Below the pieces are notes generated by a model that did no database searches, was not told the DNA's origin, and worked only from the letters and a program-made list of their open reading frames with translations. Positions 3,882 through 20,959 of a DNA stretch of 20,959 bases are shown here, in pieces. The stretch spans positions 1-20,959 of the IMG/VR virus record IMGVR_UViG_3300036768_001650. One strand, 5' to 3'. The position numbers were made by a program, and so were the translations under genes. Source of the DNA: a virus. Numbering within the stretch: position 1 is the first letter of the stretch; each line of letters starts with the position of its first letter.

Positions 3882-4367
3882 ATGTTATTACTTATACCTA
3901 TCGCCGTAGCCATGATCATTCTATGCCGAATGATCTTTCCAGATATTGTTCGTTTTGATTTAAAGGCTTATCGTAATTTTCTGTTAGTATTTCTTATATT
4001 TAATGCTGTTAGGATTTTCACAACCTTTGTATTTGGACGAATACCCTCATCCGCTATAGACCTTTCTCAATTCCCACTTTTGTTTTTTGTCTTCTGGGAA
4101 GATATGCTATTTGTTTTCCCTAGTATACTTCTACATACTTTGACTCGGAATAAGTATTTGGTTGCTCTGTTAATACTTGTAAGCTCTGTTCTTTTTTCTC
4201 TAGGTCATGTATCCCAAGGTGTAGATTGGGCCTTGATTTCATTGGCTTATGTCCCCATAATGTTCTTTGTGGGGAGAAAGTGGGGATTGGGAACTGTTAT
4301 GGCTGGTCATGTAACATATGATGTTGTAACAGATTTGGTTGTTCGTTTAATTTTGTTGGTGGTCTAA
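3882..4367 (+). CDS. CPBP (CAAX/Abi) family-like intramembrane metalloprotease
   Basis: This 161-residue protein is highly hydrophobic, with about five membrane segments (roughly residues 2-20, 32-52, 64-86, 92-110 and 117-135, plus a hydrophobic C-terminus). Three motifs in order match the CPBP intramembrane protease pattern: Glu73-Asp74 in FWEDMLF (family: EExxxR), F105-S-L-G-H109 (FxxxH) and H143-V-T-Y-D147 (HxxxN/D). The second Glu is Asp and the Arg of motif 1 is missing, so activity is uncertain. In bacteria such proteins cleave membrane proteins or prenylated tails, or give immunity to bacteriocins; a phage role is unknown. A strong AAGGAGG at 3871-3877 gives a well-expressed start right after the spike gene, so it is probably co-transcribed with late structural genes. 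Other polytopic proteins cannot be excluded. Confidence 0.65.
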   Translation: MLLLIPIAVAMIILCRMIFPDIVRFDLKAYRNFLLVFLIFNAVRIFTTFVFGRIPSSAIDLSQFPLLFFVFWEDMLFVFPSILLHTLTRNKYLVALLILVSSVLFSLGHVSQGVDWALISLAYVPIMFFVGRKWGLGTVMAGHVTYDVVTDLVVRLILLVV

Positions 4368-4645: not shown

Positions 4646-5955
4646 TGCCATTATCAAAAGAAGATAGAATTGCATTTAGTAAAAAAATAGTTGCCGCCGA
4701 GGCCGAAAAAAGCGGTATTGAATCTTCTAAGCAAAAGATCTTGGTGGAAAAACAGAAAGCATTTGATCTGGACCAGGCCAATAAAAAACTAGTCGATTCA
4801 AAAACTTCACTAATTGATCCATACCAAGTTGAGCTCTCTAGATATACTGGCGTTCTTCGTCTCTCACTGACCGAGTCGGATATTCAAGATGCTGCGAATT
4901 TAGTATTAGGTAATTCATTATTCCCTAATGATCCGCAAAACCCACCGCCTAGTTTAGCACCTCAGATCTGGACACAACCAAAGCCTTATGCAAGAACCAA
5001 GGCTGTCGGTAAGCAGAACAATGAGCAGTATCCTACTGCTGTTCCAGCCGAACAGACCTTCCTAAACAATATCTTGAGCTCTATTACGACTATTGAAACA
5101 AATTATACTTTAATTCAGCGCGTTACAGGTCAGAAGTGTACCCCTAGCCCTGATACAATTGTCACAGATACAGCTCTTCAAGCTGATTATAATACTTTAG
5201 TTTCTCAAGTTAACAATCTTAAAACTTACGTTTTGGCCACTCAGCCACTTATCTTGACTACTGATCCAGTACCTGCTAGACAAGCGCAAAACAATGCGGC
5301 TATCTCAAACATAAACACGCTCGTTACTGCTATTAACACATGGCTTGCATTGGTACCATTTAATACCTCTCATGGCCAAACAACTTGCGTAGGGTTTAAC
5401 TCTTATGACCCAGCACTATTAGGCGCAACAAGGTTACAATCAGGAGATTTAACTGCATTAAAAAATGCTATCCTTTCAAGGCAAACATTCGTAAATACCA
5501 GGGTTTCGCAGATAGATAATACATATCTTGGGTCTTTAACACAGAATCTCACCAATGGTGATGTGACTGGCTCTGGATTATATCTTGAGCGTTGGAACTT
5601 TTTACTTTTGCGCCTCAACGCCTTTGGAGGTTCTCTTTCTGTTCTTAAGGGGTTTGATAAGGCTATTAATGCTCAGACTGCCATGCAGGCTCAGATTGAT
5701 CTTTCCAAAAACACTTACAGTACACTTCTAACAGCTTCTCTTCTTTCAGCCCCATCAAATGGCACAAAAATTCTACACATTAAAAATGTCGGCGATATTA
5801 GCCCAGGAGATAATATTTTCCTAGTCTCAGATTCTCAGGAAGAGATGCTATTAACCGTAGCATCAGTTAGTGGAAACAGAATTACCGTAAGCAAGGAAGT
5901 CCCAGCTAAATATAGACCTGCCGAATTTGCAAGGGTCTATAAAGACAAGACCTAA
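4645..5955 (+). CDS. Probable baseplate/tail virion protein with C-terminal beta module
   Basis: The 436-residue protein is not recognised as a whole. Residues 1-55 are highly charged and likely helical or coiled-coil; residues 93-135 are Pro-rich and probably extended; residues 135-365 are Asn/Thr/Ala-rich with long helices. The last 65 residues form a small beta domain (HIKNVGDISPGDNIFLVSD, then VASVSGNRITVSKEVPAKY) resembling modules in the LysM-gp25, baseplate J and second wedge proteins of this window. That shared module, and its place between spike and wedge genes, makes a structural role likely. AGGA at 4634-4637 is its only ribosome site, and the start overlaps the previous stop. The stop overlaps the stop of the opposite-strand metalloprotease gene by four bases. 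Confidence 0.65.
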   Translation: MPLSKEDRIAFSKKIVAAEAEKSGIESSKQKILVEKQKAFDLDQANKKLVDSKTSLIDPYQVELSRYTGVLRLSLTESDIQDAANLVLGNSLFPNDPQNPPPSLAPQIWTQPKPYARTKAVGKQNNEQYPTAVPAEQTFLNNILSSITTIETNYTLIQRVTGQKCTPSPDTIVTDTALQADYNTLVSQVNNLKTYVLATQPLILTTDPVPARQAQNNAAISNINTLVTAINTWLALVPFNTSHGQTTCVGFNSYDPALLGATRLQSGDLTALKNAILSRQTFVNTRVSQIDNTYLGSLTQNLTNGDVTGSGLYLERWNFLLLRLNAFGGSLSVLKGFDKAINAQTAMQAQIDLSKNTYSTLLTASLLSAPSNGTKILHIKNVGDISPGDNIFLVSDSQEEMLLTVASVSGNRITVSKEVPAKYRPAEFARVYKDKT

Positions 5956-6518
5956 TTATTTTTCTTCTTTTTATAGATTTTGCTGGCATAACATCTTAGA
6001 TTCAGTTCATAGCGATAAAGTTTTCTGTGCTTCCTGTAGCAAGAACTAGTTAGCACTTTGGGATACATGATAGACACAGGACATCCGTCATCTAGAAAAC
6101 CTGCCTTTATTCTCTCTTGTACCGACTCAGGCACGACTGGGTTTTCAGGGTATACCCCTTGGAAATGTTCATGGTCTAGGTCGCACACGCAGTGTGCAAG
6201 CTCGTGAAATAGCAATGCTTCTTTTTGGTGTGCTGAGTATTCTTGCCATGTTTTTGTATCTAGGTATATAAGTTTGGTGGTTTTATATGGCCAACATAAT
6301 CCCGCTGTTGGCGGCCTGAGATCGGTCATTGTAATTTTTACATTATTTACGACTTCCTCGTCAATGATCCCCGACATTAAATCTTTAAAGTCGTTCACCA
6401 ATATCTGAATATCCGTATCTTGATCTTGTGTTTGTGGCTTTGGGGCAATATCTTGATTTTGTTGGATAATGATCGATACAGTCAGTCCTATGATAAATAA
6501 GATATGAAGTATGCCCAT
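5952..6518 (-). CDS. Exported or membrane-anchored HExxH metalloprotease, metzincin-like
   Basis: The 188-residue protein starts with a hydrophobic stretch (residues 3-18, ILHILFIIGLTVSIII) that is a signal peptide or membrane anchor without a lipobox Cys. The zinc site is clear: H105-E-L-A-H109 with a third likely ligand at H116 (HELAHCVCDLDH). A downstream SIMYP (149-153) looks like the Met-turn of metzincins. The HExxH-to-His spacing is one residue longer than the classical HExxHxxGxxH. Six cysteines (75, 110, 112, 146, 160, 176) could form disulfides, fitting action outside the cytoplasm. The C-terminus is basic, ending in a Lys run. GGAAGG lies just upstream of the ATG. It is opposite in direction to the tail genes. 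Target and timing are unknown; processing of virion proteins or damage to the host envelope are both possible. Confidence 0.75.
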   Translation of the reverse strand: MGILHILFIIGLTVSIIIQQNQDIAPKPQTQDQDTDIQILVNDFKDLMSGIIDEEVVNNVKITMTDLRPPTAGLCWPYKTTKLIYLDTKTWQEYSAHQKEALLFHELAHCVCDLDHEHFQGVYPENPVVPESVQERIKAGFLDDGCPVSIMYPKVLTSSCYRKHRKLYRYELNLRCYASKIYKKKKNN

Positions 6519-6579: not shown

Positions 6580-9222
6580 ATGCCAATATCTAAAAATAAT
6601 TTACCAGATTTACAATCTGCTGGTAAAGCAGCATTAAATACTGCTAAATCTGCTTTAGGACTTAGCAAGGATAAGGGTTCGCAACAGCAGGCTCAGCCCT
6701 TAGATATTGTTAAAGGTGTTTGGCAGGCAGATGGCAAGGACGGGTTTGAAGCAGGCTCCTTTTTCCCATCCATAGATATCCAAGGTTCTAGATGGGATAA
6801 ACTCTACCCCTATAGGCTTGTAGTGGTTCGACCAAAAGAGAATAGCGGCTTGTATGAGGTGGTGTCTATAGGGGGTTCTGCTGCTAGCGTGTCTACATCC
6901 AAGGTGGACGACCAGTTTCGAATAAGATTTAAGCCAGTAGATCGATCGTGGAGTTTTAGGCTGCCAATTACCCCACAGCAATTGTCTATTTCTAACCAGT
7001 TTGCTATCAACACCTCAGCCACACTTAGAGGTGTTGTTGAAGAGCATGGTGGAACTAAGTTTAAAATGATCTCCATGACTGGAACCTTTGGTGTTTGGCC
7101 TTATCGTGGGAATGTGAACACTAAAACCACTCCAGAGCCACCAACAAGCCTTCAAACTTTGTTTGGTGGTACATTACAAGCTTTCTCTACCCTTAAAAAC
7201 AATATCCAAAGAACGATTAGCACACTTAAGGGGGTTAATCCCAACCCAAGCACCGATTCGCCAAATGTTGCAAATGCGATAGGTGGTTATGCGGGCACTG
7301 GATATGCTCAGGCCCTTCTTTTAGATCAATTCTTAGAGCAATATGCTGAAAGAAAAAAATTCCCCGAATGGGCAAACTGTAGGCTTGCGTTTGATATTCC
7401 AAAACAGAATCAGACTTATCTAGTTACACCCATACTGTTTACACACAGTCAGTCTGCTGACTCGCCAAACGAGTATAAGTTTAGTCTCCAGTTAAAGGCA
7501 TACAGACGTATTCGGCTTAATCAGAATTTGGCACCTTCAAGAGTCACAGTACCAAAACCTCTTGGAGCTAACACCCTTCAAAGAATGCTCCGTGCTCTTA
7601 CGGATGCACGAAGAGCACTTGGTTCAGCTTATAACCTAGTAAGAGCTGTGCGCTCAGATATTAATGGTCCATTCAATGCACTTCGTGAAACCACTCTTTT
7701 TGTGAAAAATCTAGCAGGTTTAGCAGCCTCAGTGGTTGATCTTACTGATAACATCATCTCAGATGCTAAGTTCGCTATAGCTGACTCTCTGGCTAACCTT
7801 AACCAAGCTTCCCTTATTGTGTCGGGTATTGGGGCAAAGCTTATGGGCGATATTAACAAGGTTAAGGAATTTAAGCGTATACGTGAGGGGTTGCCTCTAG
7901 GCACTGCGATTGAAGAGAACACTATTCTATCTTCAAAAATCAGCCCTATAAATAATTTGTTTGACCATCCAGAGCAGAATTTTGATCTCTTTAATCAATT
8001 AGATATATACTCTGTTAATTTCCCACCATCTATAATGAATGCTATCAATGAAGAAATTGATAGGGTGTCACTGCTTACTGTTGACGATATTCAACAGCAC
8101 AAAAATACTCTGCAAGAGCTTGTATACCAAATATCAAATGCTTTTGGTACTAGCAATGACACCTTTGCTCAGATTTATGGACGCCCCACACCTAAAAAAC
8201 GATTACAGCCCATCACTATTGACGAGTATGACCTCTTAAAAAAGCTTTATGATGTAATCCAATTGATGGGCGTTCTCACTATGGATGACTCTATTCAGCA
8301 AAACCAAAATGCTGCATACGAGTTTGTTAAAGCTGAGGCTAATGACGCCGGTCTTGTTTTTGAGGATTCTACATCAAAAATTCGCGCCCCTGTACCTTTT
8401 GGTCTAACAATCGAGCAGATTGCAGCTAGATATCTGGGCAACTCAGAGCGATGGCTTGAGATAGTGACCTTGAATGCTTTGAAGCCCCCATATATTGATG
8501 AGGTTGGGTTCATACGTCCATTTCTGTCTAATGGTAATGGAAGACAATTCAATGTAAGCTCTGCAGATGATTTATATATTGGTCAGAAGATATTCTTATT
8601 CAGCAATACTCAGGCGAAACAAAGAAGAAAGATCATCAATATCGAAAAAATCAACGACACAAACTACCTGATTACGGTAGATGGTCTTGATAACCTTTCA
8701 ATTTTCACCACTGCTCAACACGCTAAGATGCAGGCTTATTTACCAGGTACTGTAAATAGTCAAGATCAGATTTTTATACCTTCAGACCTACCAGTTTCTG
8801 AAAATCTCGTTACTAGACCTGTTCCAGCCACTAAGGATGATGAGCTTACTGGCTTATCAAAGATTGATCTGTTGTTAACTGATGATAATGATATTGCCGT
8901 AGATGCTTTTGGTGATCTTAGACTTGCTTATGGTTTGACCAATATCTTTCAGGCTTTGAAGCTCAAGTTTATCACCGAGCCTGGCCAGCTTCTTCGTTTC
9001 CCTGGCTTTGGTTCTGGATTAAGACCTGGTATATCTAATGCTGATATAAACGCTCAGGACGTATATAATATAATCTCTGCTTTGATAGCTCAGGACCATA
9101 GGTTTGCAGGTATTGATAATCTTCAAATAATCCAGGAAGGACCAATCTTTACAGTGAACCTTTCTGTATTTATGGCAAATGGTTTGGGTGTTTATCCTAT
9201 TAGCTTTAAGCTTGCTACGTGA
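6580..9222 (+). CDS. Baseplate wedge protein with LysM-like and gp25-like domains
   Basis: This 880-residue protein combines parts often separate in other phages. Residues 60-320 form a beta-rich tail-protein domain (ITPQQLSISNQF, then FPEWANCRLAF and YKFSLQLKAYRR). Residues 330-600 look helical. Residues about 600-640 contain a LysM-like segment (GLTIEQIAARYLGNSERW, then LNALKPPYID), as in T4 gp53 and similar baseplate proteins. Residues 645-735 hold a small beta module also seen in neighbouring genes. Residues about 760-878 match the gp25/baseplate W fold: ALKLKFITEPGQLLRFPGFG, then IDNLQI and VNLSVFM. gp25-like proteins start sheath polymerisation. GAGGG at 6571-6575 sets the ATG. The next gene is a homing endonuclease, which separates it from the baseplate J gene. 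Confidence 0.8.
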   Translation: MPISKNNLPDLQSAGKAALNTAKSALGLSKDKGSQQQAQPLDIVKGVWQADGKDGFEAGSFFPSIDIQGSRWDKLYPYRLVVVRPKENSGLYEVVSIGGSAASVSTSKVDDQFRIRFKPVDRSWSFRLPITPQQLSISNQFAINTSATLRGVVEEHGGTKFKMISMTGTFGVWPYRGNVNTKTTPEPPTSLQTLFGGTLQAFSTLKNNIQRTISTLKGVNPNPSTDSPNVANAIGGYAGTGYAQALLLDQFLEQYAERKKFPEWANCRLAFDIPKQNQTYLVTPILFTHSQSADSPNEYKFSLQLKAYRRIRLNQNLAPSRVTVPKPLGANTLQRMLRALTDARRALGSAYNLVRAVRSDINGPFNALRETTLFVKNLAGLAASVVDLTDNIISDAKFAIADSLANLNQASLIVSGIGAKLMGDINKVKEFKRIREGLPLGTAIEENTILSSKISPINNLFDHPEQNFDLFNQLDIYSVNFPPSIMNAINEEIDRVSLLTVDDIQQHKNTLQELVYQISNAFGTSNDTFAQIYGRPTPKKRLQPITIDEYDLLKKLYDVIQLMGVLTMDDSIQQNQNAAYEFVKAEANDAGLVFEDSTSKIRAPVPFGLTIEQIAARYLGNSERWLEIVTLNALKPPYIDEVGFIRPFLSNGNGRQFNVSSADDLYIGQKIFLFSNTQAKQRRKIINIEKINDTNYLITVDGLDNLSIFTTAQHAKMQAYLPGTVNSQDQIFIPSDLPVSENLVTRPVPATKDDELTGLSKIDLLLTDDNDIAVDAFGDLRLAYGLTNIFQALKLKFITEPGQLLRFPGFGSGLRPGISNADINAQDVYNIISALIAQDHRFAGIDNLQIIQEGPIFTVNLSVFMANGLGVYPISFKLAT

Positions 9223-9244: not shown

Positions 9245-10081
9245 ATGGCTAAGTTTCGTTGGACAGTAGAAAGGGTTATGGAAGATGCCAAGAGGTTTGA
9301 TAGTCTTAGCCTTTGGGAAAAACATAGCAAATCAGCAGTGAGGGTAGCCAGAAAAATGGGGATTTTAGAAAAAGCCACTTCACATATGATTAAAAATAAG
9401 AAATGGTCTATTCAGGACCTTATTGAGGATGCTAAAAAATACAGCACTCGATCAGAGTGGGCGGCCAATTCTAATGCCTATCATTATGCCAAACGAAGAA
9501 AAATACTAGATATTTGCTGCTCCCATATGTCTAAACCTCCTGCTCATAATAAAAAATGGAACCATCAAAATGCCTTAGAAGAAGCCAGAAAGTATAAAAC
9601 TCGTGGGGAGTGGATTAAGAAATCCAGTGCCTCTTATAGGTATTGCAGGGATAATAATCTACTAGATGAGGCAAGAAGTCAAATGCCTCATCAAAGCGGT
9701 ACCTCCCTACCTGAAAAAGAACTTTTTGCTATGATTAAAAATAAATACCCCAAGGCTCAAACTGCTTGGTTTCAGGTAAAAGATCCAGAATTTGCTCCAG
9801 CTAAAAGATTTCAGTTAGATATTTACATTCCCGAGCTTCGTAAGGGCATTGAATTTAACGGTGCCTATTGGCATAGTTTTGATGGATTGGCTAGAAGTAG
9901 AAAACCCAAGGGTTGGACCGATGTCCAGATTGAGAACTATCACGAATTAAAAAAAGGGTTTTTCCAAAAGAAACAAATTCAATTTATAGAAATTTGGGAA
10001 AATGATTGGAAAACAAATAGAGAGCAATGTCTGTTAAAGATATTTTCTTTTTTAGAGGGATCGCATGGCTCAGACACCTGA
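9245..10081 (+). CDS. Homing endonuclease with three DNA-binding-like repeats and Vsr/EDxHD-like nuclease domain
   Basis: The 278-residue protein has three repeats of about 44 residues (5-48, 53-95, 104-147), each with a starting Trp, an AKKY-type helix, an EW pair and an ending HM or QM. The C-terminal domain (155-270) resembles the Vsr-like homing nucleases with an EDxHD motif, of the I-Bth0305I type: Glu157 or Glu159, Asp192 in FQLDIYIP, EFNGAYWHS with His210, then IWENDW near 250. It probably cuts an allele lacking the gene and spreads by repair. It sits between two baseplate genes. GAGGAA at 9235-9240 is the ribosome site. Its last 17 bases overlap the baseplate J start, whose ribosome site lies in its final codons. 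A paralogue begins at 20217. Confidence 0.8.
   Translation: MAKFRWTVERVMEDAKRFDSLSLWEKHSKSAVRVARKMGILEKATSHMIKNKKWSIQDLIEDAKKYSTRSEWAANSNAYHYAKRRKILDICCSHMSKPPAHNKKWNHQNALEEARKYKTRGEWIKKSSASYRYCRDNNLLDEARSQMPHQSGTSLPEKELFAMIKNKYPKAQTAWFQVKDPEFAPAKRFQLDIYIPELRKGIEFNGAYWHSFDGLARSRKPKGWTDVQIENYHELKKGFFQKKQIQFIEIWENDWKTNREQCLLKIFSFLEGSHGSDT
9257..9685 (+). repeat. Three 44-residue protein repeats in the first homing endonuclease
   Basis: Repeat units cover 9257-9388, 9401-9529 and 9554-9685. Shared positions are an initial Trp, (E/D)(D/E)A(K/R)(K/R)(Y/F), an (E/L)W pair, a Ser-rich turn, a basic patch and a closing Leu-x(5-6)-HM/QM. The pattern suggests repeated helical DNA-reading units. It is a protein-level repeat; the DNA copies have diverged. 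Confidence 0.7.
10054..10060 (+). promoter_or_regulatory. Ribosome binding site of baseplate J gene inside the endonuclease gene
   Basis: AGAGGGA ends four bases before the ATG at 10065. It lies within the last nine codons of the endonuclease gene, so translation of the giant baseplate protein starts from a site embedded in the mobile gene. Confidence 0.6.
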
Positions 10082-13000
10082 TATAAAAACTCAAGAACAG
10101 TTTTTAGGCGAGATGCTCGCCGATTGGATTTCTCGAACAGGCGTTAATGATATTAACGTCGGGTCTCTGACCACTCAACTCTTTGAAGTTATGGCCTTGA
10201 TGGCGGCCCGTGTATCAGGTGATGCTCTTCAGATCCTTAGAGATCTTTCTGTCGACCGTGCTGAGGGCGAGTCCCTTCGTCGTATCGCAACTGATGAAGG
10301 TCTTCGTGAGCTTCCTGCTCGTGTTGCATCTGGTACTGTAACAATTACAGATTCTAGTTTTACAAAAATTGCAACAAAGATTTACGCAGGAGCAAAAGCC
10401 CCAAATATTGGATCAACTGAAATCTTTGTTTCCGATGCGTCCAATTTCCCTAACTCTGGCAATATTTATATTGGCCGTGGAACTCCTAACGTAGAAGGAC
10501 CCCTTGCATATACAAGCAAGACTCCAATTGGTGGATACTGGAAGCTTACTCTTTCAACTTCGACCACTAAGTTTCACAATATTAATGAATCCGTGATCCT
10601 TGCTCAAGGTGGTACTCGCTCTATCCCTACTGGTACAGTAGTTCGTGCACCAGCTTCTGGTGCAACTGCCGATGTCAATTTTGTTGTTACTCAACCTGCT
10701 GTTATTCTTGATGGTGAAACTGAAGTTAATGGTGTCCTTGTCTCTGCTCAGGAGCCAGGAAAAATAGGCAATGTACCGATTGGAGCTATTAAGGAGTTTG
10801 CTACTCCACCATTTACTGGTGCTAAAGTGACAAATAAACTACCTTTTAAAACAGGTAGGGATGTTGAAACTGATGAAGAACTTAGAATCAGAATTAAAAG
10901 AGCACGTCTTTCTCGTGGTCTCGGTACTGCGTTGGCAGTAAAAAGCTCTGTTATTGGAGCTACACCTTCTGACGAGAACGCAACTATTGTCTCTTCTGAG
11001 ATTGTAACAAGTGCAGGTGAAACTACTCTTTATGTTGACGATGGCACTGGTTATGAGCAAAAGACATCTGGTGTTGGTGTGGAATTTTTAGTTGACTCTG
11101 CTCTTGGTGGAGAGACCAACTTTCAGCTTGAAACAGGTGGTAGACAGACAAGTGTTGCAAAAGCTTTCATTGTTTCAAATCTTAAAGCTCCTTTCGATAT
11201 AGCTGGCACCGATCGCCTTGCGGTCTCTGTTGGTGGAGTTACGACTGAACATGTTTTTCAGGATTCTGATTTTATAAGCCCAGGTGGAGCTACTGCTTAC
11301 GAGATTGTCGCCTCTATTAATGCTAATAGCTCTCTTCTTTTTGAGGCTGCCACAGCAGAAGGCGGAACTAAGGTAATGTTACAAGCACGAGCTAATGATA
11401 ATGAGGATATCCAAGTTGTTGGGGTGACCGCAGGAAGAGACGCAGCCGTTTTGATGGGATTCCCTTCTAACAAGGTTGAGACTTTACGATTATTTAAGAA
11501 TAAAAAACCTCTTTCAAAAGACGGACGTACAGCTACGGTAATTTCTAGAAAGCAGACGGCTTGGTCATCCACTATCGCTAGTGGTGAAACCTTAAAGATT
11601 TCGGTGGATGGAACTGATCCGATTACCTACACTATAACTGATGCTGATTTTATTGCTGAAGGTTCTCATAATTCTGTTGCTGCTACTAACTCTCTTGAGA
11701 GCTGGGTAAATGTTTTCAACAACAAGCTCACAGGTGTCACCGCTACAAGAGTTGGTGAGCAGATTTATCTCACCTCAAATCTTGGCACTTCAGATAGAGC
11801 TAAAATTGAGATATTCCAATCAGGCTCGTCTCTTGTTAGTAAGGGTATGTTTTCATCTACTCTTGGTCTTTCCGCAACAGGAAAATCTGCGGATTTTGAA
11901 TTCTCAAGAAATACTGCACAGATCAAGCTAAAGACCCCACTTAACGCTGGGGATGAGCTTACAGCAGGAAGTAGGGAAACAGAAGCAAGAGTCCAAACTG
12001 CTCGTATTCTGGGTGGGACCCTCACTATTCCTTCTACAGCATATATCTGGTTTTTGTTTGATGATAAAAATGCATCGATTGTAAATACGGGTGTTTCTGC
12101 TAACTCTGTAATTAACGTCCAGAAACCAACCACAAATATCGTTCGATATGTTTCCTCTGTACCATCGGCCTTCTCCTCTGTTCAAGTTGGTGATTATGTC
12201 ATTATCTGGTCGACACAACTTTCTGCGCCTAACAGGTTGGAAGGGCGTGTAAATGCTGTGACTCCTACCGCTCTAGATATCAAGGTTACGGCTGCTGAAT
12301 ATGCTGCGGCTGTTGTGGAATCTGGTGTCGTATTCCAAGAAGGTTTTGTTGTTCTTAGAACCTCTAAGGTCCCTCAGAAACTTAAGGTTAATCCAGGTAC
12401 TGCTAAACCTATCAGCCAGATAGCTGATGAGCTTAGTTCTCAGGTAAAGGCTGCAGAGTTCTCAACCCTTGATGATGAGATTATTGTCTGTAAATCTAAA
12501 ACGAAGACATCAGACGGTGCCGTATTGGTCGTGACGTTTGATGTTAATGGAAAACTTTTAAGCTTTACTGCTGGCGACTCAGATGTTAGTAAGGATTCTT
12601 TGATTGCTTTTTACGAGAGTGGTTATAAAGAAGGATCTTTCCCACTATTTGCCCATACCGATTTTGCCTCTGAGGCTTCTGCTGTACCTCCTTCTACATA
12701 CATCTCTACCATCACAAGCTCTATCAGCCCTTCTTCACTCGGTTTAGATCCCAACCTAATCATTGGGTATCTTCAACCATATGGTTCTATTTTAGATGCT
12801 TTAAGCACTTCAGAAACAACCGAGCTTGATAATTATTCTGGAGCCACACTGACTCTAGATCAGGACCCTCTTATTAAGAGACTTAGACTTGGTGATCGTT
12901 TATACTTTGCCCAACCTCTTGATTTTGGTCATGAGGATGAAGCTGTAGTTATTCTAGATGGCGATGTGTCTAATAAAACTTTTGAAATTCCTTTTTTCAG

Positions 13001-16000
13001 AAGAGCACAGACAAATACTAGCTTGCCAAACAACCCCAACTCTTTCAATGCTTACGATTTAGATGGTGGTCCAACTACTCCTTTTACCCAGTTTTTCGGT
13101 TCTGCTTTCAAATTTGATAATTTCAAGGTATTGATGCAGGCAAAGAGGGTTATAGATCCTCCTGCAAATGAAGACGCTATCCTTTATCGCGCTGTAAAAT
13201 GGGGTCGATCTGGAGAGCGAATCAATGTTGCGTACACTTATCCTACTGTTCCAAATAGCCCTGTATCGCACACAGTAACTGTTGATGACAATATCAATGT
13301 AAGAATTTCATTAAAATCAGGTGGTGCTATTACTACCAATATAGATGGAACCACAGAGTGGGATGTCACAATCACTCCAAACACACCTGTTGCGGGTGTG
13401 GATCAGGTGACTTATACATGGTCTGGTGTAGGTACTGCACCAGGACTTAGCGGCCTTTCTGGTGGTGAATATGTAACTATCTCACAAGGTTCTGAGCTTA
13501 ATGTTAAGAATACTGGAACCTTTCGTGTTAGTACCCAAGTAGGTTTTACTCCTACGGCGAATAGTTTCACTATTGTTAGAAAGAATGGTGAAGCTGTTGC
13601 TGAACAAAATAAGGCCACTCTAGTCGCTAGTGTGTTTAGTTTCTACGCCCCATTAGCTACTACGGCTGCTGATATCCAAACTTATGTCAGCACTTCATCT
13701 TTGTCCAATATCTTGACTGCTACTCTCGTCAATGACAGTGGAACATCTGGTTCTGGAGTGATAAATAAGAGTACAGCCGAGCAGAATAATTTTGCTATTT
13801 CTTATTATTTTCTAAAAGATGGAATTAACTGGATTGCAAGTACGAATCTAGGCGGTTCTCCTCAGTTTACATTTAAAACTCCGCTCACCTATACTTCTGA
13901 TACTGGATATGCGTTTAACCAGTCAGAAGAGCTTAGGCTTATCCCTACAAGCGTAGAGCAAGCCGTCAGGTTTGCTAATGTACTTGCTGTTACTGGCTTT
14001 ACAACTCTTGGCTCTATCCGTTTAACTAATAGGGAAAGTCGAATGGAGCTTTCTACCAACCTACTTGGTGGTAGTGGTTCTATTCAGATTGTTGGTGGTA
14101 CGGCTAATTCTGTAGAGACCCCTGTTCTAGGAAGCTCTCTCCTAATTAAAAATCAATACATACTCTCTAGTGTTAACAAGTCTGGATTATTAGGATTTCA
14201 TAGTGACCAGTGGGTAAAACTTTTTGCTAGATTTAAACAACCCAAATCAACCCTATTCAAAGAGACAGCTACGATTTCTATAGATGGTGATTTTGGAACA
14301 ATCGGTAAATCGAAGATCGCCTTATCTGGTAGGACTTTGACTGATCGTCATTTTGGCCAACCTAGACATCATATCAGAAGTAGAACAAGGACCTTTAAGG
14401 TTGAGAAGCAGGGTGATTTTACATGTATTAGTTGGGATGGATCTGGAACCCAGCCATTTTTCTCAAAAACTTTGAATTTGAATGCGACTGCTGGTGGTAC
14501 TTTAAATATTGAGAAAATATCAAATACCAGTGAGGTGAACATTTTTATTCTCACTGGTCCTGTTAACTTTACAGAAGTCTCCATTGGAGATATCATAACC
14601 ATTTCTGGTATGGTTTATCCTGAAAACAACGGTTCTTTCCTAGTGACTGGTGTTTCACAGAACGGAAAAACACTCAGGATCTTAAATCCTATTGGAATTA
14701 GCGAGTTCTCAACTGGAACCTTTACTATCACAAACAACGCCACTGTTAATAATGACCAGTTTCAAGTTGGTACTACCACTTTGATTGCAGGTACTCATTT
14801 TACCGTTGGTGCGACTGCTAATGACACTGCTGCTAATTTAGCTACTGCTATTGGTGCTATTCCAGGTGTTACGGCTTCTGCTTCAGCGAACGTCGTAACT
14901 ATTGAAGCAACTACTCCAAATGCAAACATTGCACTAGGTTATACCGATGTAGGCTCAAACGGTGGTGCTACTGTCTCTGGTTCGCAACTTGTTGGTCGTA
15001 GTTATACATCCTCTGATTTTTCATGTACTTCTTCTGTTAAGGAAGGAGATACGGTTATAATCTCTGCTCCTTTTACATATGACAATAGAGGTAAGTTTAG
15101 AGTAATCAGACGCTTCAATAACTCAATATACATTGATAATCCGAATTCGGTCGAAGAAACAGTGAACCTTCCTAACAACTACCAGAATTTGGGGTATGCA
15201 TTAGGTGTGGCCCAATTTAAAGTGGATGCTTCAAATAACAGAATGAGACTTCAATGGATAAGTGGAGGTACTGAGCCTGATTTCGATATAGCACAACCTG
15301 GCGACGAGTTGATTTGTAGTGGCACTAACTTCTTGACATCAAACCAGGGTACTTTCACAGTCACTAGTTCTGGTAAACAACTACAAGAGATCACAAGAGT
15401 TACTTGTATTCCTGGAAACCAGATAACATCTGGTCATTACTGGTTGCTTAATGCGGCTGGAAATACTACAGAGTATTATGTCTGGTATAATGTTAGTGGT
15501 GGCGGTGGAGACCCAATGCTGGCAGGTAAGACAGGTATTCAAGTTGTTATCAACAGTGGAGATTCTGCATCACAGGTCGCAACCGCCACTAACACTGCTA
15601 TCAACGGTTTGCCGACAGTTTTCACATCTGTGGTGTCCAACAACAAGGTGACTATTACAACTACTGGTTATGCAGAGACCACACACGCCACAACAGGCAA
15701 TATGAATTCACCATTTAGTGTTGAGATTCTTCAGGCAGGAAGAAGAACATTCATTGAATGTATCAATCCATCTGTTACTGCACAGTCGACTCCGTTTACA
15801 ATTTCTAATGCGTCAGATTTACTATTACACAGACCACAAATCCTATTCTATGAATATGAAGCTACGGTTAAGGGCGATTCTTTTATTATCACTGGAGACT
15901 TCTTAGGTTCTAACAATAAGGGTTCTTGGGTTGTTGATCGTGTTATCGATCAAGATACTATCCTTGTTGTAGGCTCTATGGTTGACAAAGATCCTATTTC

Positions 16001-16643
16001 TTTGTCTGGCCATCAAGAAGATATACTTGTCCAGGAAGAGAGTCCTTATGTAGGATACAAGCAAATCCGTATGCTCTTAAATGACCCTGCTTCACCAAGT
16101 CGTGGTATTATGGTGTTCTCTACACCAGAACAGTTTAACAAGATCAACGATATTGGTCAGGTGCAAATTTATGCCATGGCTAAGCTTGGTTTTAATACTA
16201 CTATCAAAAAAGGCTTAGATAGCTATCGTTATCATACTGGTTTGATTGGCGAGGCTAATCGTATCGTTTACGGAGATCCTAGAGACCCAATAACATATCC
16301 AGGTGTTGGCGCAGCAGGTGCTGAGATATTCATTCGTGAGCCTCTTTTTAGAAGAGTCCAGGTTGCTATCGATGTGCGTATCGAGACTGGTATTCCTTTT
16401 GCCCAGATCGCAGAGCAGGTTAGAACTAACATCACTGCTCTTATCGAAGGTAATGAGATCGGTCAGCCTATTGCTATCAGTGACATCGTAGAGACAGTAA
16501 ACACCATCCCTGGAGTACGTGCTGTGGCTATTAGTTCTCCGCTTTACAATGCTTCGAACGATACAATTCATATCGCTCCTTCAGAGAAGGCAAGAATTAT
16601 TGACCCAACAACCGATATTTCTGTTAGACAGATTGGTAGTTAA
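10065..16643 (+). CDS. Giant baseplate J (gp6-like) wedge protein with a large modular insertion
   Basis: The protein has 2192 residues, where baseplate J proteins usually have about 350-650. The N-terminus (1-110: ISRTGVNDINVGSLTTQLFE, then LRRIATDEGL), the middle core (190-300: GKIGNVPIGAI, then DEELRIRIKRARL) and the C-terminus (2088-2192: FRRVQVAIDVRIETGIPF, then NTIPGVRAV) are clear baseplate J parts. Between about residues 300 and 2085 lies a string of small beta modules: two copies of one type (383-470, 507-606), five of a GD...NxGxF type (from 1133, 1507, 1660, 1745 and 1936), a Thr/Ala-rich module (1560-1645) and one unit (1789-1892) shared with the next gene. In the baseplate, gp6-type proteins form the ring that changes shape on contraction. 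The insertion could be surface arms or receptor-facing structure. The next gene starts two bases after the stop codon. Confidence 0.85.
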   Translation: MAQTPDIKTQEQFLGEMLADWISRTGVNDINVGSLTTQLFEVMALMAARVSGDALQILRDLSVDRAEGESLRRIATDEGLRELPARVASGTVTITDSSFTKIATKIYAGAKAPNIGSTEIFVSDASNFPNSGNIYIGRGTPNVEGPLAYTSKTPIGGYWKLTLSTSTTKFHNINESVILAQGGTRSIPTGTVVRAPASGATADVNFVVTQPAVILDGETEVNGVLVSAQEPGKIGNVPIGAIKEFATPPFTGAKVTNKLPFKTGRDVETDEELRIRIKRARLSRGLGTALAVKSSVIGATPSDENATIVSSEIVTSAGETTLYVDDGTGYEQKTSGVGVEFLVDSALGGETNFQLETGGRQTSVAKAFIVSNLKAPFDIAGTDRLAVSVGGVTTEHVFQDSDFISPGGATAYEIVASINANSSLLFEAATAEGGTKVMLQARANDNEDIQVVGVTAGRDAAVLMGFPSNKVETLRLFKNKKPLSKDGRTATVISRKQTAWSSTIASGETLKISVDGTDPITYTITDADFIAEGSHNSVAATNSLESWVNVFNNKLTGVTATRVGEQIYLTSNLGTSDRAKIEIFQSGSSLVSKGMFSSTLGLSATGKSADFEFSRNTAQIKLKTPLNAGDELTAGSRETEARVQTARILGGTLTIPSTAYIWFLFDDKNASIVNTGVSANSVINVQKPTTNIVRYVSSVPSAFSSVQVGDYVIIWSTQLSAPNRLEGRVNAVTPTALDIKVTAAEYAAAVVESGVVFQEGFVVLRTSKVPQKLKVNPGTAKPISQIADELSSQVKAAEFSTLDDEIIVCKSKTKTSDGAVLVVTFDVNGKLLSFTAGDSDVSKDSLIAFYESGYKEGSFPLFAHTDFASEASAVPPSTYISTITSSISPSSLGLDPNLIIGYLQPYGSILDALSTSETTELDNYSGATLTLDQDPLIKRLRLGDRLYFAQPLDFGHEDEAVVILDGDVSNKTFEIPFFRRAQTNTSLPNNPNSFNAYDLDGGPTTPFTQFFGSAFKFDNFKVLMQAKRVIDPPANEDAILYRAVKWGRSGERINVAYTYPTVPNSPVSHTVTVDDNINVRISLKSGGAITTNIDGTTEWDVTITPNTPVAGVDQVTYTWSGVGTAPGLSGLSGGEYVTISQGSELNVKNTGTFRVSTQVGFTPTANSFTIVRKNGEAVAEQNKATLVASVFSFYAPLATTAADIQTYVSTSSLSNILTATLVNDSGTSGSGVINKSTAEQNNFAISYYFLKDGINWIASTNLGGSPQFTFKTPLTYTSDTGYAFNQSEELRLIPTSVEQAVRFANVLAVTGFTTLGSIRLTNRESRMELSTNLLGGSGSIQIVGGTANSVETPVLGSSLLIKNQYILSSVNKSGLLGFHSDQWVKLFARFKQPKSTLFKETATISIDGDFGTIGKSKIALSGRTLTDRHFGQPRHHIRSRTRTFKVEKQGDFTCISWDGSGTQPFFSKTLNLNATAGGTLNIEKISNTSEVNIFILTGPVNFTEVSIGDIITISGMVYPENNGSFLVTGVSQNGKTLRILNPIGISEFSTGTFTITNNATVNNDQFQVGTTTLIAGTHFTVGATANDTAANLATAIGAIPGVTASASANVVTIEATTPNANIALGYTDVGSNGGATVSGSQLVGRSYTSSDFSCTSSVKEGDTVIISAPFTYDNRGKFRVIRRFNNSIYIDNPNSVEETVNLPNNYQNLGYALGVAQFKVDASNNRMRLQWISGGTEPDFDIAQPGDELICSGTNFLTSNQGTFTVTSSGKQLQEITRVTCIPGNQITSGHYWLLNAAGNTTEYYVWYNVSGGGGDPMLAGKTGIQVVINSGDSASQVATATNTAINGLPTVFTSVVSNNKVTITTTGYAETTHATTGNMNSPFSVEILQAGRRTFIECINPSVTAQSTPFTISNASDLLLHRPQILFYEYEATVKGDSFIITGDFLGSNNKGSWVVDRVIDQDTILVVGSMVDKDPISLSGHQEDILVQEESPYVGYKQIRMLLNDPASPSRGIMVFSTPEQFNKINDIGQVQIYAMAKLGFNTTIKKGLDSYRYHTGLIGEANRIVYGDPRDPITYPGVGAAGAEIFIREPLFRRVQVAIDVRIETGIPFAQIAEQVRTNITALIEGNEIGQPIAISDIVETVNTIPGVRAVAISSPLYNASNDTIHIAPSEKARIIDPTTDISVRQIGS
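11211..11880 (+). repeat. Two tandem beta modules of a G-DF-AxEI type within baseplate J
   Basis: The first covers 11211 to about 11470, the second 11583 to about 11880. Both read as a strand, a Gly turn, a strand with a (S/A)DF motif (QDSDFIS, TDADFIA), a helix with Ala/Asn, then two strands and a small-residue end near LMGF or LGLS. A third related copy is in the next gene at 17027-17296. Confidence 0.5.
13461..15977 (+). repeat. Five dispersed GD...NxGxF beta modules within baseplate J
   Basis: Units start at 13461, 14583, 15042, 15297 and 15870 and are about 90-130 bases each. Each has Gly-Asp/Glu followed by an alternating strand ending in Ser/Thr-Gly or similar, an Asn-rich turn, then Gly-x-(F/W) and two more strands: for example IGDIITISG...NNGSFLVTG and PGDELICSG...NQGTFTVT. 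A sixth copy is at 17414-17533 in the next gene. Confidence 0.55.
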
Positions 16644-16645
16644 AG

Positions 16646-18691
16646 ATGGCAACAACTAAGCAGGAACAATACGAGATACTGAGAAAGCTATTCAACAGCG
16701 CAATCCGTGGTCCAAACACAGACGCAATACTTTGGGCATTGGCTAATCCTGCCGTTAACCTTATGAATAATATTGAGGCTATACACGATAATGTGTATAT
16801 TGCTACGGCTGTTGATCGTTATCTGGATCAAAGGCTTGCGGACTATAATCTAGTAAGACCCCCAGAGGTTGGTCTTAGTGATGATATTTTCCGTCATATT
16901 GGAATTTCAGTCATTAACAGAAAGCAGGTTCGTGATCTTATTATGTCTATCCTTACTACCATATTTGGTAAGGAATTGACTCAAGCTACTGCAAAAAGTG
17001 GTAAGGCTGCACCTTACGACCTTGATGATGGCGATATTCTCAAAGTTAAATTTGATGGAGGAGAGGTTGTTCAAATTAAGTTTGAGTCTGCACAGTTTGT
17101 TAACATCAATGCAGCCACTGCTCAGGAAGTGGCTGATGCCATTACAAAATCATTAAGAGCGCAAGGGAAGTCTGGACGCGCTTTTGTAAAAGACGATGGT
17201 TCTGGTTCGTATGTTGCCTTGATTTCTGATACAGAAGGCCCACAGTCTTCTGTGGTTGTGCTTGGCGGACGTGCTCAGAATGAGCTTATGTTTGATAAGG
17301 TTCGCCCTACCACTGGCGCGGCATCTACAACGTGGGCTGTATCTCTTGTAGCTGGTGGTTTTTTGAGATTCACATGGATAGGAGGTTCTAATCCATCTAT
17401 TGGGAAAGTGCGTGTTGGCGACTATGTAAATATCTTTGGTTCTGGTTTTAATGCTCAGAATCAGGGCACTTTCACCATAACGGGCGTAAAAGGTGGAACT
17501 GTAAATAATGCGTATTTTGAGGTTGAAAACCCACTAGGAGTAGCTCAGGCTAGCGTTGCTCAGGGTACTACTGATGGGATTTTATTTTTTCAGCCTGTCA
17601 AAAACACAATAACCACAAAGTTTAGATATGCGGCTCTTTTTCAGGAAGAGTCAAGACTTCTTGAGGTTTTCATTCCTGCTACAACTAAGGTGGTGCGTCG
17701 TGACCGTAAAGGTGCTGCTCATATTCATGAGCCTATTATTGTTACAGAAACATATGACCCAGGTAAGAATGAGATAACCGACGTTACGGTTCCAAGCCCT
17801 AGCCTTATCTCAGATGGTGATTATTTCTTATTGGATTCCGCAGGCAATGTACATCTTTACTATGTCTATTTTGACACTACTGGTGGAAATCTTGTCGATC
17901 CAGCTATTGCTGGTAGAACTGGTATACGTGTAGATATATCTACAGCTACAAACGCAACAGATGTTGCCATTAAAGCTGCAAGCGCAATCAACGATATTGC
18001 TTATTTCAATGTTGCCACACCTTCTGGACCTGTGTTTAGAATTTGTAATGCTCAGGTTGGCAACTCTAACGGTGTAGCAAACGGAAACGTCACAGGCCTT
18101 TCTTTGTCTATTGTTCAGCAGGGAGTTGATGAGACATCTACTACGAGTTCTACTCCAAATCCAAATGAAACTCTTCCAGATCAACAAGGCCCTTACACAT
18201 ACGATCCCACACAACCTTTTGTGCTGTCTGACATAGGGACAACTTCTACCGCCGTTATTTCTCCAGAATCAGGAAAGATTATACAGGTTTCAAATGCATC
18301 GAATTTTCCTGACAAGCCAGGTTTCATAATGATCAGCTATGGCACTGATAGGCAAGAAGGTCCTGTTCCATATTTAGCTCGCCCGAGCAATACTACTATT
18401 CTTTTGAGTCCTGCGTTTCGTATTGTCAACACACACGCTGTAGGCACATCAGTTAGACTTGTTGCTCAAACAGGCCCTGTATCTATTGACAAGGCTGGTG
18501 CTGACTTCCCAGCTTATCTCACTGATGTTGTTGCTGGAAGGCTCTATGCAGAGAAACTCGTCAAAGAAGTAGCTGCTACTGGTATAAACATTGTTATCAC
18601 TATTTTGTACCCTGGCGATGAGGGGTTATCAAAATTCTGGACTCCATTTTCAGAAAAAGTCGTAGTTTGGGGAGAAGATTCAAATGCCTAA
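16646..18691 (+). CDS. Second baseplate wedge protein sharing modules with baseplate J
   Basis: The 681-residue protein follows the baseplate J gene by two bases with no clear ribosome site of its own, so it is probably translationally coupled. Residues 1-110 look helical and contain AVDRYLDQRLADYNLVRPP and DIFRHIGISVINRKQV, a start resembling baseplate J relatives. Then come modules seen in the giant neighbour: a G-DF-AxEI type unit (128-217), a GD...NxGxF unit (257-296), a DYFLL...GNVHLYYVYF unit (390-493) and an ASNFP...EGPVPY unit (about 535-610). The C-terminus (615-681) is mixed alpha/beta with VITILYPGDEG. It could be the partner of the J protein in the wedge, like T4 gp7 or a gpI-type protein, but no clear homology was seen. 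Its end overlaps the next gene by eight bases. Confidence 0.65.
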   Translation: MATTKQEQYEILRKLFNSAIRGPNTDAILWALANPAVNLMNNIEAIHDNVYIATAVDRYLDQRLADYNLVRPPEVGLSDDIFRHIGISVINRKQVRDLIMSILTTIFGKELTQATAKSGKAAPYDLDDGDILKVKFDGGEVVQIKFESAQFVNINAATAQEVADAITKSLRAQGKSGRAFVKDDGSGSYVALISDTEGPQSSVVVLGGRAQNELMFDKVRPTTGAASTTWAVSLVAGGFLRFTWIGGSNPSIGKVRVGDYVNIFGSGFNAQNQGTFTITGVKGGTVNNAYFEVENPLGVAQASVAQGTTDGILFFQPVKNTITTKFRYAALFQEESRLLEVFIPATTKVVRRDRKGAAHIHEPIIVTETYDPGKNEITDVTVPSPSLISDGDYFLLDSAGNVHLYYVYFDTTGGNLVDPAIAGRTGIRVDISTATNATDVAIKAASAINDIAYFNVATPSGPVFRICNAQVGNSNGVANGNVTGLSLSIVQQGVDETSTTSSTPNPNETLPDQQGPYTYDPTQPFVLSDIGTTSTAVISPESGKIIQVSNASNFPDKPGFIMISYGTDRQEGPVPYLARPSNTTILLSPAFRIVNTHAVGTSVRLVAQTGPVSIDKAGADFPAYLTDVVAGRLYAEKLVKEVAATGINIVITILYPGDEGLSKFWTPFSEKVVVWGEDSNA

Positions 18692-19112
18692 ACCCTCGGT
18701 TGTTCTTTCTGGTGCTTTAGTTAGAATATATATAAACAATAGAGTCTATAATGAGGCTCAAGCTGTCTCTTACACTATTGACTACGGTGAAGTCGAAGTG
18801 TATGGAATTGATTCCCCATTTCCTCAAGAGATCCATTCAACAAGAGCTATGGTAGCTGGTAGTATTTCTGGTCTACGTCTTAGAAACTCTGGTGGTATCC
18901 AGCCTTTCAAAGCAAGACCTAAGATCACAGATGTTATAAAAGCTGAGTATATCAGCCTTAGAATTCAAGATAGAAGCACAGGTGAGGATATCCTTTTTAT
19001 ACCCAATGCGAAAGTAAGTAAGCAAAGCCTTCAAGTTCAGGCCAAGGGGATTGTTCGTTTGAGTTTTGACTTTAAAGGGCTTATAGGTTTTGAACCAATG
19101 GATAGAGTTTAA
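18684..19112 (+). CDS. Small tail-tube-fold protein, possible tube initiator
   Basis: This 142-residue protein is beta-rich: VRIYINNRVYNEAQAVSYTI, then DYGEVEVYGIDSPFPQEI, a Gly-containing loop (MVAGSISGLRLRNSGG), and a final NAKVSKQSLQVQAKGIVRLS with FDFKG. The order of strands, the helix in the middle and the ending resemble small tail tube and tube-like proteins (gp19 fold), which also act as tube initiators in the baseplate (T4 gp48/gp54). Its place as the last wedge gene suits an initiator rather than the main tube protein. GGGGAGA at 18669-18675 gives the start at 18684. It ends tail-to-tail with the exonuclease gene, overlapping by four bases (TTAA). Confidence 0.6.
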   Translation: MPKPSVVLSGALVRIYINNRVYNEAQAVSYTIDYGEVEVYGIDSPFPQEIHSTRAMVAGSISGLRLRNSGGIQPFKARPKITDVIKAEYISLRIQDRSTGEDILFIPNAKVSKQSLQVQAKGIVRLSFDFKGLIGFEPMDRV

Positions 19113-19648
19113 GTTTTTTTAAGCTTAGCAGACAAAAAATTATAAACTTTCACCGTATTGATAGCATCCCAAAGGGCGTTGTGGCTTTTACCTTCGAAGG
19201 TAAGGCCTAGTTCTTTTATGGCATCTTCTAACCCGCCTTTTACTTTTTCACCGTTTTCTATACGGTACATCTGATAAAGAGTTTTAACATCCAAAACCCT
19301 ATGACCCATGAAGTTTGGCTCTCCTGGGTCTGCCTCTTTGTAAAGGTGTAAGGCATCGTTCCAGGAACCACTTCCCCATAGGATGGGGTTCTTAAATACT
19401 TTGTGCTTCTTTGCAAATTGCTTTAATTTAAAGTAGGCTTCTTTACATGAATACCCATGAGTCTCAACCTGATCTTGTGTGATGCCTGTTAGCTTGGTTA
19501 TTTCAGGTGCCAATTTCTCCTGTGGGTTTACATAAACCATGAATTTATCTATGATTACTCCGTCTTTTTTACGAAAAACGCAGGCACCGACTTGAATTAT
19601 TTTTTGTGACGGTTGATTTAGTTCTAAATCTATTGACAATAATTTCAT
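19109..19648 (-). CDS. DEDDh-family 3'-5' exonuclease (DnaQ-like)
   Basis: The 179-residue protein has all five catalytic residues of the DEDDh exonuclease family: Asp7 and Glu9 in SIDLEL, Asp98 in GSGSWNDAL, and His156 and Asp161 in KSHNALWDA. Length and layout match single-domain members of the ERI-1/KapD/DnaQ group, which remove nucleotides from the 3' end of RNA or DNA. Substrate cannot be read from sequence. It is placed on the minus strand after the baseplate genes, probably co-transcribed from upstream with the zinc-finger gene 30 bases away. Its ribosome site (GGAAAGG) is moderate. Roles in phage DNA repair, RNA processing or nucleotide recycling are all possible. Confidence 0.8.
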   Translation of the reverse strand: MKLLSIDLELNQPSQKIIQVGACVFRKKDGVIIDKFMVYVNPQEKLAPEITKLTGITQDQVETHGYSCKEAYFKLKQFAKKHKVFKNPILWGSGSWNDALHLYKEADPGEPNFMGHRVLDVKTLYQMYRIENGEKVKGGLEDAIKELGLTFEGKSHNALWDAINTVKVYNFLSAKLKKT

Positions 19649-20216: not shown

Positions 20217-20959
20217 ATGCGGATTAAGTGGACTTTAGAGTCTCTTCAAGAAGAAGCTAAAAAGTACAAAACAAGGACAGAATGGGCTAAAAAGTCCAAA
20301 GCTTCCTATTTGGCTGCCGCTAGAAGAAAAATGCTTGATGCCCTATCTTCTCATATGGACCTATCAGCAAGTAAAAAGAAATGGTCAGAACAAGCCATAT
20401 TAAACGAGGCATTAAAGTATAAGTCCAAGTCCGAATGGCAAAGAAAATCTCCATCGAGCTATGTGGCTGCTCAAAGAAAGAAATTGCTTAAAAAGGCATC
20501 TGCCCATATGTCTAGGCCAGAATCTTGGGCTAAAAAATGGACCAAAGTGGCTGTTATTGAGGATGCAAAAAGATTTTCTTCTAGGAAAGAATGGCAAAAA
20601 CAGTCCCCTGCTTGGAAGGTCGCTCAAAGAAATAAATGGCTAGATGAGGCTTGCGCCCATATGGAAAACAAAAGATCTTCATGGACCAAAGAGGCAGTTG
20701 CAAGAGAAGCCATGAGATTTCAGTCAAAAAATGATTGGATAAAACTTTCTAAAAATTCATATCAATTTGCCCAAAAGATGGGTTGGTTAAATGAGCTTTC
20801 AAGCCATATGAAGGCCCAGGGCGGTGTTTCTTCTTTGGAAACGGAGCTTTTAAATACTATCAAATCTCAATATCCAAAAGCACACTCTGCTTGGTTTCAA
20901 GTGAAAGAGCCTGAATTTGCTCCAGCTAAGAGATTTCAGTTAGACATCTATGTCCCAGA
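20217..20959 (+). CDS. Homing endonuclease paralogue, four repeats and start of nuclease domain (3' end cut by window)
   Basis: The frame is open from the ATG at 20217 to the window edge (247 full codons). It has four repeats of about 44 residues (4-47, 55-98, 107-149, 155-198), one more than the gene at 9245, then the start of the same nuclease domain: SSLETELL with Glu208/Glu210, AWFQVKEPEFAPAKRFQLD with Asp243, cut just after Tyr-Val-Pro. The missing part should hold the EFNG...WH motif. Over the 72 bases 20886-20957 it matches 9761-9832 at 60 positions, showing shared recent ancestry. Upstream a TAA at 20196-20198 closes the frame, so the ATG at 20217 is the only good start. It is probably a free-standing mobile gene inserted beside the minus-strand accessory pair. 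Confidence 0.8.
   Translation, partial: MRIKWTLESLQEEAKKYKTRTEWAKKSKASYLAAARRKMLDALSSHMDLSASKKKWSEQAILNEALKYKSKSEWQRKSPSSYVAAQRKKLLKKASAHMSRPESWAKKWTKVAVIEDAKRFSSRKEWQKQSPAWKVAQRNKWLDEACAHMENKRSSWTKEAVAREAMRFQSKNDWIKLSKNSYQFAQKMGWLNELSSHMKAQGGVSSLETELLNTIKSQYPKAHSAWFQVKEPEFAPAKRFQLDIYVP
20226..20810 (+). repeat. Four 44-residue protein repeats in the second homing endonuclease
   Basis: Units cover 20226-20357, 20379-20510, 20535-20663 and 20679-20810. Each begins with (K/S)W and ends in HM, with the pattern A(K/L/M)(K/R)(Y/F), then (E/D)W, Ser, and Ala-rich helix. The spacing of units and the closing HM match the first endonuclease. Confidence 0.75.

Follow-up and report, generated by a model that had tools for sequence, protein, structure and literature searches.

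The J-like wedge proteins of contractile injection systems accept extra domains of considerable size, which build cages or make contact with membranes, as Alg11 of AlgoCIS and the Anabaena proteins Cis11 and Cis12 illustrate (PMC8894135, PMC8894136). In Alg11 it is an inserted domain IV (residues 278-643) that cages the spike and has carbohydrate-binding modules, and Anabaena Cis11 likewise has a cage domain (PMC8894135, PMC8894136). Further out, the peripheral wedge of the gp7/gpI type is where the receptor-binding complexes of many phages attach (PMC10811340). Ordinary J proteins themselves, such as those of Staphylococcus phage SEP1, phi812, Mu (gp47), phiCD508 and diffocin (TRI-2), have ~345-380 residues. 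The protein considered here is encoded on a stretch of viral DNA of 20,959 bases (the window; positions 1 to 20,959 of IMG/VR virus record IMGVR_UViG_3300036768_001650), a fragment of that virus record without a sheath gene. It belongs to the J family, being a wedge of the T4 gp6, P2 gpJ and Mu gp47 type, and has 2192 residues in one uninterrupted open reading frame (ORF; 10065-16643, +). Since large J inserts are already known from contractile injection systems, the protein represents an extreme case within a known type, and its giant form is the normal one in a large, almost entirely uncultured and unclassified group of contractile-tailed phages; in the open literature searched, no published work on giant J proteins was found.

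That J landmarks stand at both ends of this single frame had been proposed from the bare nucleotide sequence (the sequence-only reading), and profile and fold comparisons bear it out. A frame so long is expected by chance, at the base composition of the window, with a probability of ~10^-62. Pfam Baseplate_J (PF04865) matches residues 182-280, at 55 bits when residues 1-350 are used and at 40.9 bits, above the curated cut-off of 21.1 bits, with the whole chain; PHROG 6 covers residues 185-327 (profile positions 162-285) and picks up again at ~2077 (profile 302-398). The core comprises residues 1-110, helices and first strands (10065-10394; this and all other parts of the protein lie on the + strand), for which Foldseek and VIA return the J proteins of phiCD508, A-1(L), phi812 and Mu; residues 191-335 (10635-11069), identified by Pfam Baseplate_J, PHROG 6 and spliced-core alignment; and residues 2041-2192 (16185-16640), identified by PHROG 6, fold and spliced alignment, with the J C-terminal domain at 2092-2192. 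The N-terminal core resembles the solved J proteins of those four phages and of others with a best Foldseek E of 3.5e-9 and Z up to 15, the large root mean square deviation (rmsd) of these matches presumably reflecting domains placed differently relative to each other, and residues 2092-2192 resemble the J C-terminal domains of phi812, pyocin R2 PA0618, Mu and diffocin (Z 10-12, rmsd 1.7-3.1 over ~83-93 residues).

A spliced-core profile, in which the family core has the middle and one small module (E, below) cut out, aligns as one domain with the 348-residue J of SEP1 (profile 10-347 to residues 6-314) and so fixes a single insertion site; in all the ordinary J proteins named above both core halves are alike by spliced profile and fold. 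Between anchors at ~298 and ~2085 there are ~1,790 residues here, close to the ~1780 of the earlier estimate, versus 46 in SEP1 J, a net gain of ~1,740. The enlargement is real, but the 'about fourfold' at which it had been put was too low, the factor being about sixfold over SEP1 J. The site takes insertions elsewhere too, since the J proteins of the Gordonia phage RedWattleHog (588 residues) and of HRTV-25 (407 residues) carry 264 and 127 residues there; both are far smaller than giant J, and the likeness established is one of insertion place. An artefact of sequencing or assembly is ruled out by more than 110 distinct relatives with the same giant frame.

What separates the core halves is a two-level chain of small beta modules: a colinear scaffold and, nested within it, a variable array. 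Profile alignment, the predicted models and the module analysis all support the internal modular insertion of the sequence-only reading, with the refinement of a second, smaller insertion in the N-terminal half. This is module E (residues 111-190; 10395-10634), set in the J beta domain, without counterpart in ordinary J and present in the product of the next gene too; dropping it improves or joins the alignment to ordinary J. The scaffold occupies residues 336-1440 (11070-14384), is colinear in most members, and resumes at 1986 to run to ~2040-2060. Along it come module C (372-470; 11178-11474), which hhalign matches to residues ~112-218 of the next gene product at 5e-14; its diverged relative module D (494-608; 11544-11888; 7e-7 from the C module of the next gene); and two copies of module A, at 665-733 (12057-12263; 51 bits with the module hidden Markov model, HMM) and at 1078-1159 (13296-13541; 73 bits, and 2e-12 by hhalign to 1704-1768). 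The nested array of A and B modules (1441-1985; 14385-16019) is recognised by indels, divergence and its predicted barrel flanks. It contains module B2 (1538-1645; 14676-14999; module HMM 126 bits), an A copy at 1698-1770 (15156-15374; profile comparison and module HMM) with further copies at ~1467-1531 and ~1650-1700 and a fragment at ~1933-1985, and module B (1770-1892; 15372-15740), which recurs in the next gene (hhalign 9e-18). Module A, of ~70 residues, is a repeated unit accompanied by related longer modules (profile comparison, E down to 2e-12). That the modules are beta is upheld by two confident models; the richness in glycine, serine and threonine that had been claimed with it is modest: these residues make up 29.7% of the insert, 28.8% and 19.7% of the N- and C-terminal core, respectively, and 21-27% of ordinary J proteins.

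The models are of two overlapping fragments, 1-1095 and 1000-2192, predicted separately with family alignments (mean predicted local distance difference test, pLDDT, 82 and 88, respectively), and the fold is mostly beta. In them residues 1343-1440 pair with ~1987-2040 to make a single barrel resembling EF-Tu domain 2 (Z up to 9.7), the scaffold barrel returning at 1986-2040 (16020-16184). Because this predicted barrel closes around 1441-1985, the array appears nested inside the scaffold, and a two-level geometry is likely on the model. Confidence is low at ~280-337 and ~2051-2091, stretches that sit in separate fragments and are expected to pack together in the full chain; this is consistent with the J split, though other causes are possible.

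Structure searches return many small domains with different relatives. Module C resembles a domain of the Pa193 sheath (Z 8.4), D a domain of phage XM1 chain 7kh1_A6 (Z 10.8, rmsd 2.6 over 110 residues), B2 a sheath domain of cyanophage A-1(L) (Z 11.8, rmsd 1.7 over 87) and also the T7 nozzle protein, residues 639-844 the D2-D3 domains of FliD (Z 10), and E domains of K1 lyase, the LKA1 and phi92 tailspikes and T5 pb9 (Z 7-10). A Z of 7-10 can mean a shared arrangement only, the B2 and D matches being the firmest. That the middle is one known domain, which would have told against the sequence-only reading, is ruled out, since separate parts resemble separate folds (Foldseek, VIA). Could the insert have replaced once-separate peripheral wedge proteins of the T4 gp7/gp8/gp10 type, packing several subunits into each chain? 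J-like frames of 1000-1300 residues are indeed common in Bacteroidota genomes (other Baseplate_J frames among the 296 scanned have 371-1622 residues), but the modules look like domains of sheaths, tailspikes and FliD, among the matches listed no chain of gp7, gp8 or gp10 is prominent, and a separate protein is still encoded 3' of J in most loci, so that such a fusion seems to us improbable.

Relatives were gathered by scans of viral sequences plus one scan of genomes; two tighter family alignments served for searching, that of the most divergent members being too variable. The N-terminal J core is present in 119 distinct complete frames; the 115 that also have the C-terminal half range from 1416 to 2920 residues (median ~2180) on contigs of up to 177 kb; on contigs of 113-177 kb J is a single frame of 1.4-2.8 thousand residues. 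One relative is in a Saprospiraceae contig of a metagenome-assembled genome, which may be a binned phage. In three relatives J lies in two frames (L028 1350-6630, L050 1012-6868, L081 59-5993), that of L028 being split, apparently, by a small out-of-frame deletion. Entries in the viral library BFVD named 'Baseplate protein J-like', from uncultured Caudovirales (A0A6J5L250, A0A6J5KUV1 and A0A6J7WUL1), match the model of 1000-2192 with E from 3e-54 to 1e-20; they are stored in pieces, from whose sizes a full length of ~1,850-2,600 can be estimated, and no publication dealing with them was found. With a lineage of more than 110 members and the BFVD entries, the giant size is not peculiar to a single genome. 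The sequence-only reading had left room for such proteins being common in a known phage group: common the size is, in those relatives, but the lineage is unclassified and nearly all uncultured.

Among 50,697 annotated phage records the only close relative is in Myxococcus phage Mx1, a myovirus whose contractile tail measures 100 nm (PMC6070905). Its 1925-residue 'baseplate protein J-like protein' (WNM70274.1), the closest cultured relative, is 34.8% identical over 77% of the protein and has modules E, C, D and A in common with the window protein; B and B2 were not detected in it, and its nested region is shorter. Mx1 has an annotated sheath gene and an annotated tailspike, and no J modules were found in its sheath. 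Shortly upstream of the Mx1 J gene are genes for a nicotinamide phosphoribosyltransferase and a nicotinamide-nucleotide adenylyltransferase (locus L004, 12103-15405, -).

Variation is unevenly spread along the chain. The order of the scaffold is colinear across most of the family, over hundreds of residues between proteins ~50% identical, and it is in the nested array that indels of 73, 123 and ~615 residues are located, the length of the array going from ~150 residues in relative L100 to ~1,170 in L021. The shortest members (1420-1459 residues) keep the core, E and C with little else recognisable, the region corresponding to 481-1440 being poorly recognised. The insert of a short J relative, L094 (10001-14356), has another module, Phage_BR0599 (Pfam 2.8e-7), at residues 1216-1265. 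Over residues 1536-1940 the nonsynonymous divergence (dN) of the window protein from L006 and L011 amounts to 0.15-0.19, the highest along the chain, against 0.01-0.05 for the J core; the ratio to synonymous divergence (dN/dS) in the scaffold is mostly 0.05-0.2, with a maximum of 0.29 in 481-620. It is below 0.5 in every part, so purifying selection acts throughout, and positive selection is ruled out, no value reaching 1. An insert that was a tolerated spacer, growing by module duplication with no specific role, would account for the wide range of lengths and for the modules duplicated within the chain. Colinearity between ~50%-identical proteins, strong purifying selection and the lack, among the relatives recovered, of any intact member of the lineage from which the insert has been lost make such passive growth very hard to credit. 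That the A/B array is itself the primary adhesin might be supposed from its being the most variable part, and from the resemblance of E to tailspike-associated domains. Mx1, as mentioned, has an annotated tailspike, relatives encode a B-module protein of ~926 residues downstream, and A and B modules are in the neighbouring gene too, suggesting a structural use; direct receptor binding by the array is, in our judgement, rather doubtful.

That neighbouring gene (T2; 16646-18691, +) begins 3 bases after the J stop codon ends and encodes 681 residues. A large ORF is immediately 3' of J in 56 of 63 non-redundant loci, and by its position alone, that of gp7/gpI, T2 is a candidate for the outer wedge protein. 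Between ends of its own it carries modules C (119-220), A (210-282), B (371-493) and E (538-617), these four types being common to T2 and J (E 1e-7 to 1e-17) in nearly all loci, with B optional in T2. No significant PDB match to T2 was obtained by sequence, and profile comparison gave no support to the idea, raised by its N-terminal helices, of T2 being a J paralogue. Module B is also in the ORF of ~926 residues further downstream in relatives. A PHROG 165 tail-sheath profile hits that protein (1.9e-7); the match is confined to the B module and there is no alignment with the Mx1 sheath, which leaves it unsupported as a tail sheath. In seven genomes the B modules of J were compared with those of the downstream protein encoded by the same phage, and neither co-evolution nor gene conversion between the two was seen.

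Does the insert instead close around the spike? Copies of J whose inserts met around and under the spike, as Alg11 domain IV does in AlgoCIS, could protect its tip and open on contraction, and the Anabaena Cis11 cage domain is a second precedent (PMC8894135, PMC8894136). A large insert interrupting the J core is common to giant J and Alg11, and chains of both systems (7aeb, 7b5h) are among the structural matches to the giant J core. The solved chains of Alg11/Alg12 and Cis11/Cis12 have 549-1227 residues, with other inserted domains, and serve injection systems rather than phages; the present insert is ~5 times longer than Alg11 domain IV and of different modules. The structural matches listed for giant J include no carbohydrate-binding chain of the TmCBM27 type, though one may lie among those unlisted. 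As the modules are common to the outer-wedge candidate T2, the periphery fits better, and a spike cage is in our view unlikely, if less so than fusion or direct receptor binding.

What we consider probable is that the protein is a J wedge of the ordinary kind, that its insert makes the outer baseplate larger, and that the nested array is the part of it that is exposed and can be exchanged. Residues 1-335 and ~2041-2192 come together again as an ordinary J core, as profile and fold show, and this core, by analogy with the rest of the family, would form the wedge ring around the spike. The ~1,740-residue insertion exits the core at the segment joining the middle helices to the C-terminal domain. 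From there the scaffold (336-1440 and 1986-2060) would build arms or a skirt of the outer baseplate, packed against the T2 product, with the array as the end available for fibre attachment or contact with the cell surface. T4 gp6 is present in 12 copies per baseplate; with a mass of 185 kDa, the insert would contribute about 1.1 MDa per baseplate if present 6 times and about 2.2 MDa if present 12 times. A signal from fibre or surface contact might pass by way of the scaffold to the J ring and on to sheath contraction, analogous to what has been proposed for T4 and AlgoCIS. The arms, shell or host-contact function suggested at the outset is plausible in this light. To a more specific proposal, that in this lineage J and T2 draw on one kit of beta modules to make up a joint modular outer baseplate, and that a cassette site nested in J gains, loses and swaps modules and so retunes fibre or host contact, we would give somewhat less than an even chance.

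Several considerations weigh against the outer-baseplate interpretation. The outward direction of the insert and its packing with the T2 product are inferred, the models being of two J fragments, each as a single chain. Profile comparison gave T2 no sequence match to the genes downstream of J in four ordinary phages. Within a genome, the B modules of J resemble those of the downstream protein no more than they do between genomes, which gives no hint of a common partner co-evolving with both. The high divergence of the nested array might come from relaxed constraint and not from host contact; dN/dS stays below 1, and in the more distant pair L008/L009 residues 1941-2040 diverge as much as 1771-1895.

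The J gene sits in a baseplate cluster with spike-like and hub-like neighbours (weak to clear profile matches) and a gene order conserved in the family. Upstream is an 880-residue multidomain baseplate protein (6580-9222, +; matches to baseplate-protein and hub-like profiles, PHROG 975 2.3e-18 and PHROG 184 1.1e-5, with a weak LysM match of 0.01, under the cut-off), and an ORF of ~830-950 residues is just upstream of J in most loci. Between that gene and J, overlapping the start of J by 17 bases, the window has a homing-endonuclease-like ORF (9245-10081, +), a site empty in most relatives; a related ORF (20217-20957, +) continues past the window end. Also within the cluster are a putative phage metallopeptidase encoded by the other strand (5952-6518, -), at whose position a minus-strand ORF of ~180-220 residues recurs in many relatives, and a membrane protein (3882-4367, +) weakly like Rce1-type CAAX proteases (E 0.005, under the cut-off). 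An RNase_T family 3'-5' exonuclease (Pfam 4.6e-21) is encoded at 19109-19648 (-).

Few parts of contractile machines are as well conserved as the J wedge, and here ~1,700 residues are kept at one place in it under selection. The existence of such a lineage explains the oversized 'J-like' annotations met with in metagenomes, and its cultured member, Mx1, makes the outer-baseplate interpretation testable. Giant J, together with a next wedge gene made of the same modules, would illustrate the extent to which the periphery of a baseplate can be elaborated with its trigger intact.

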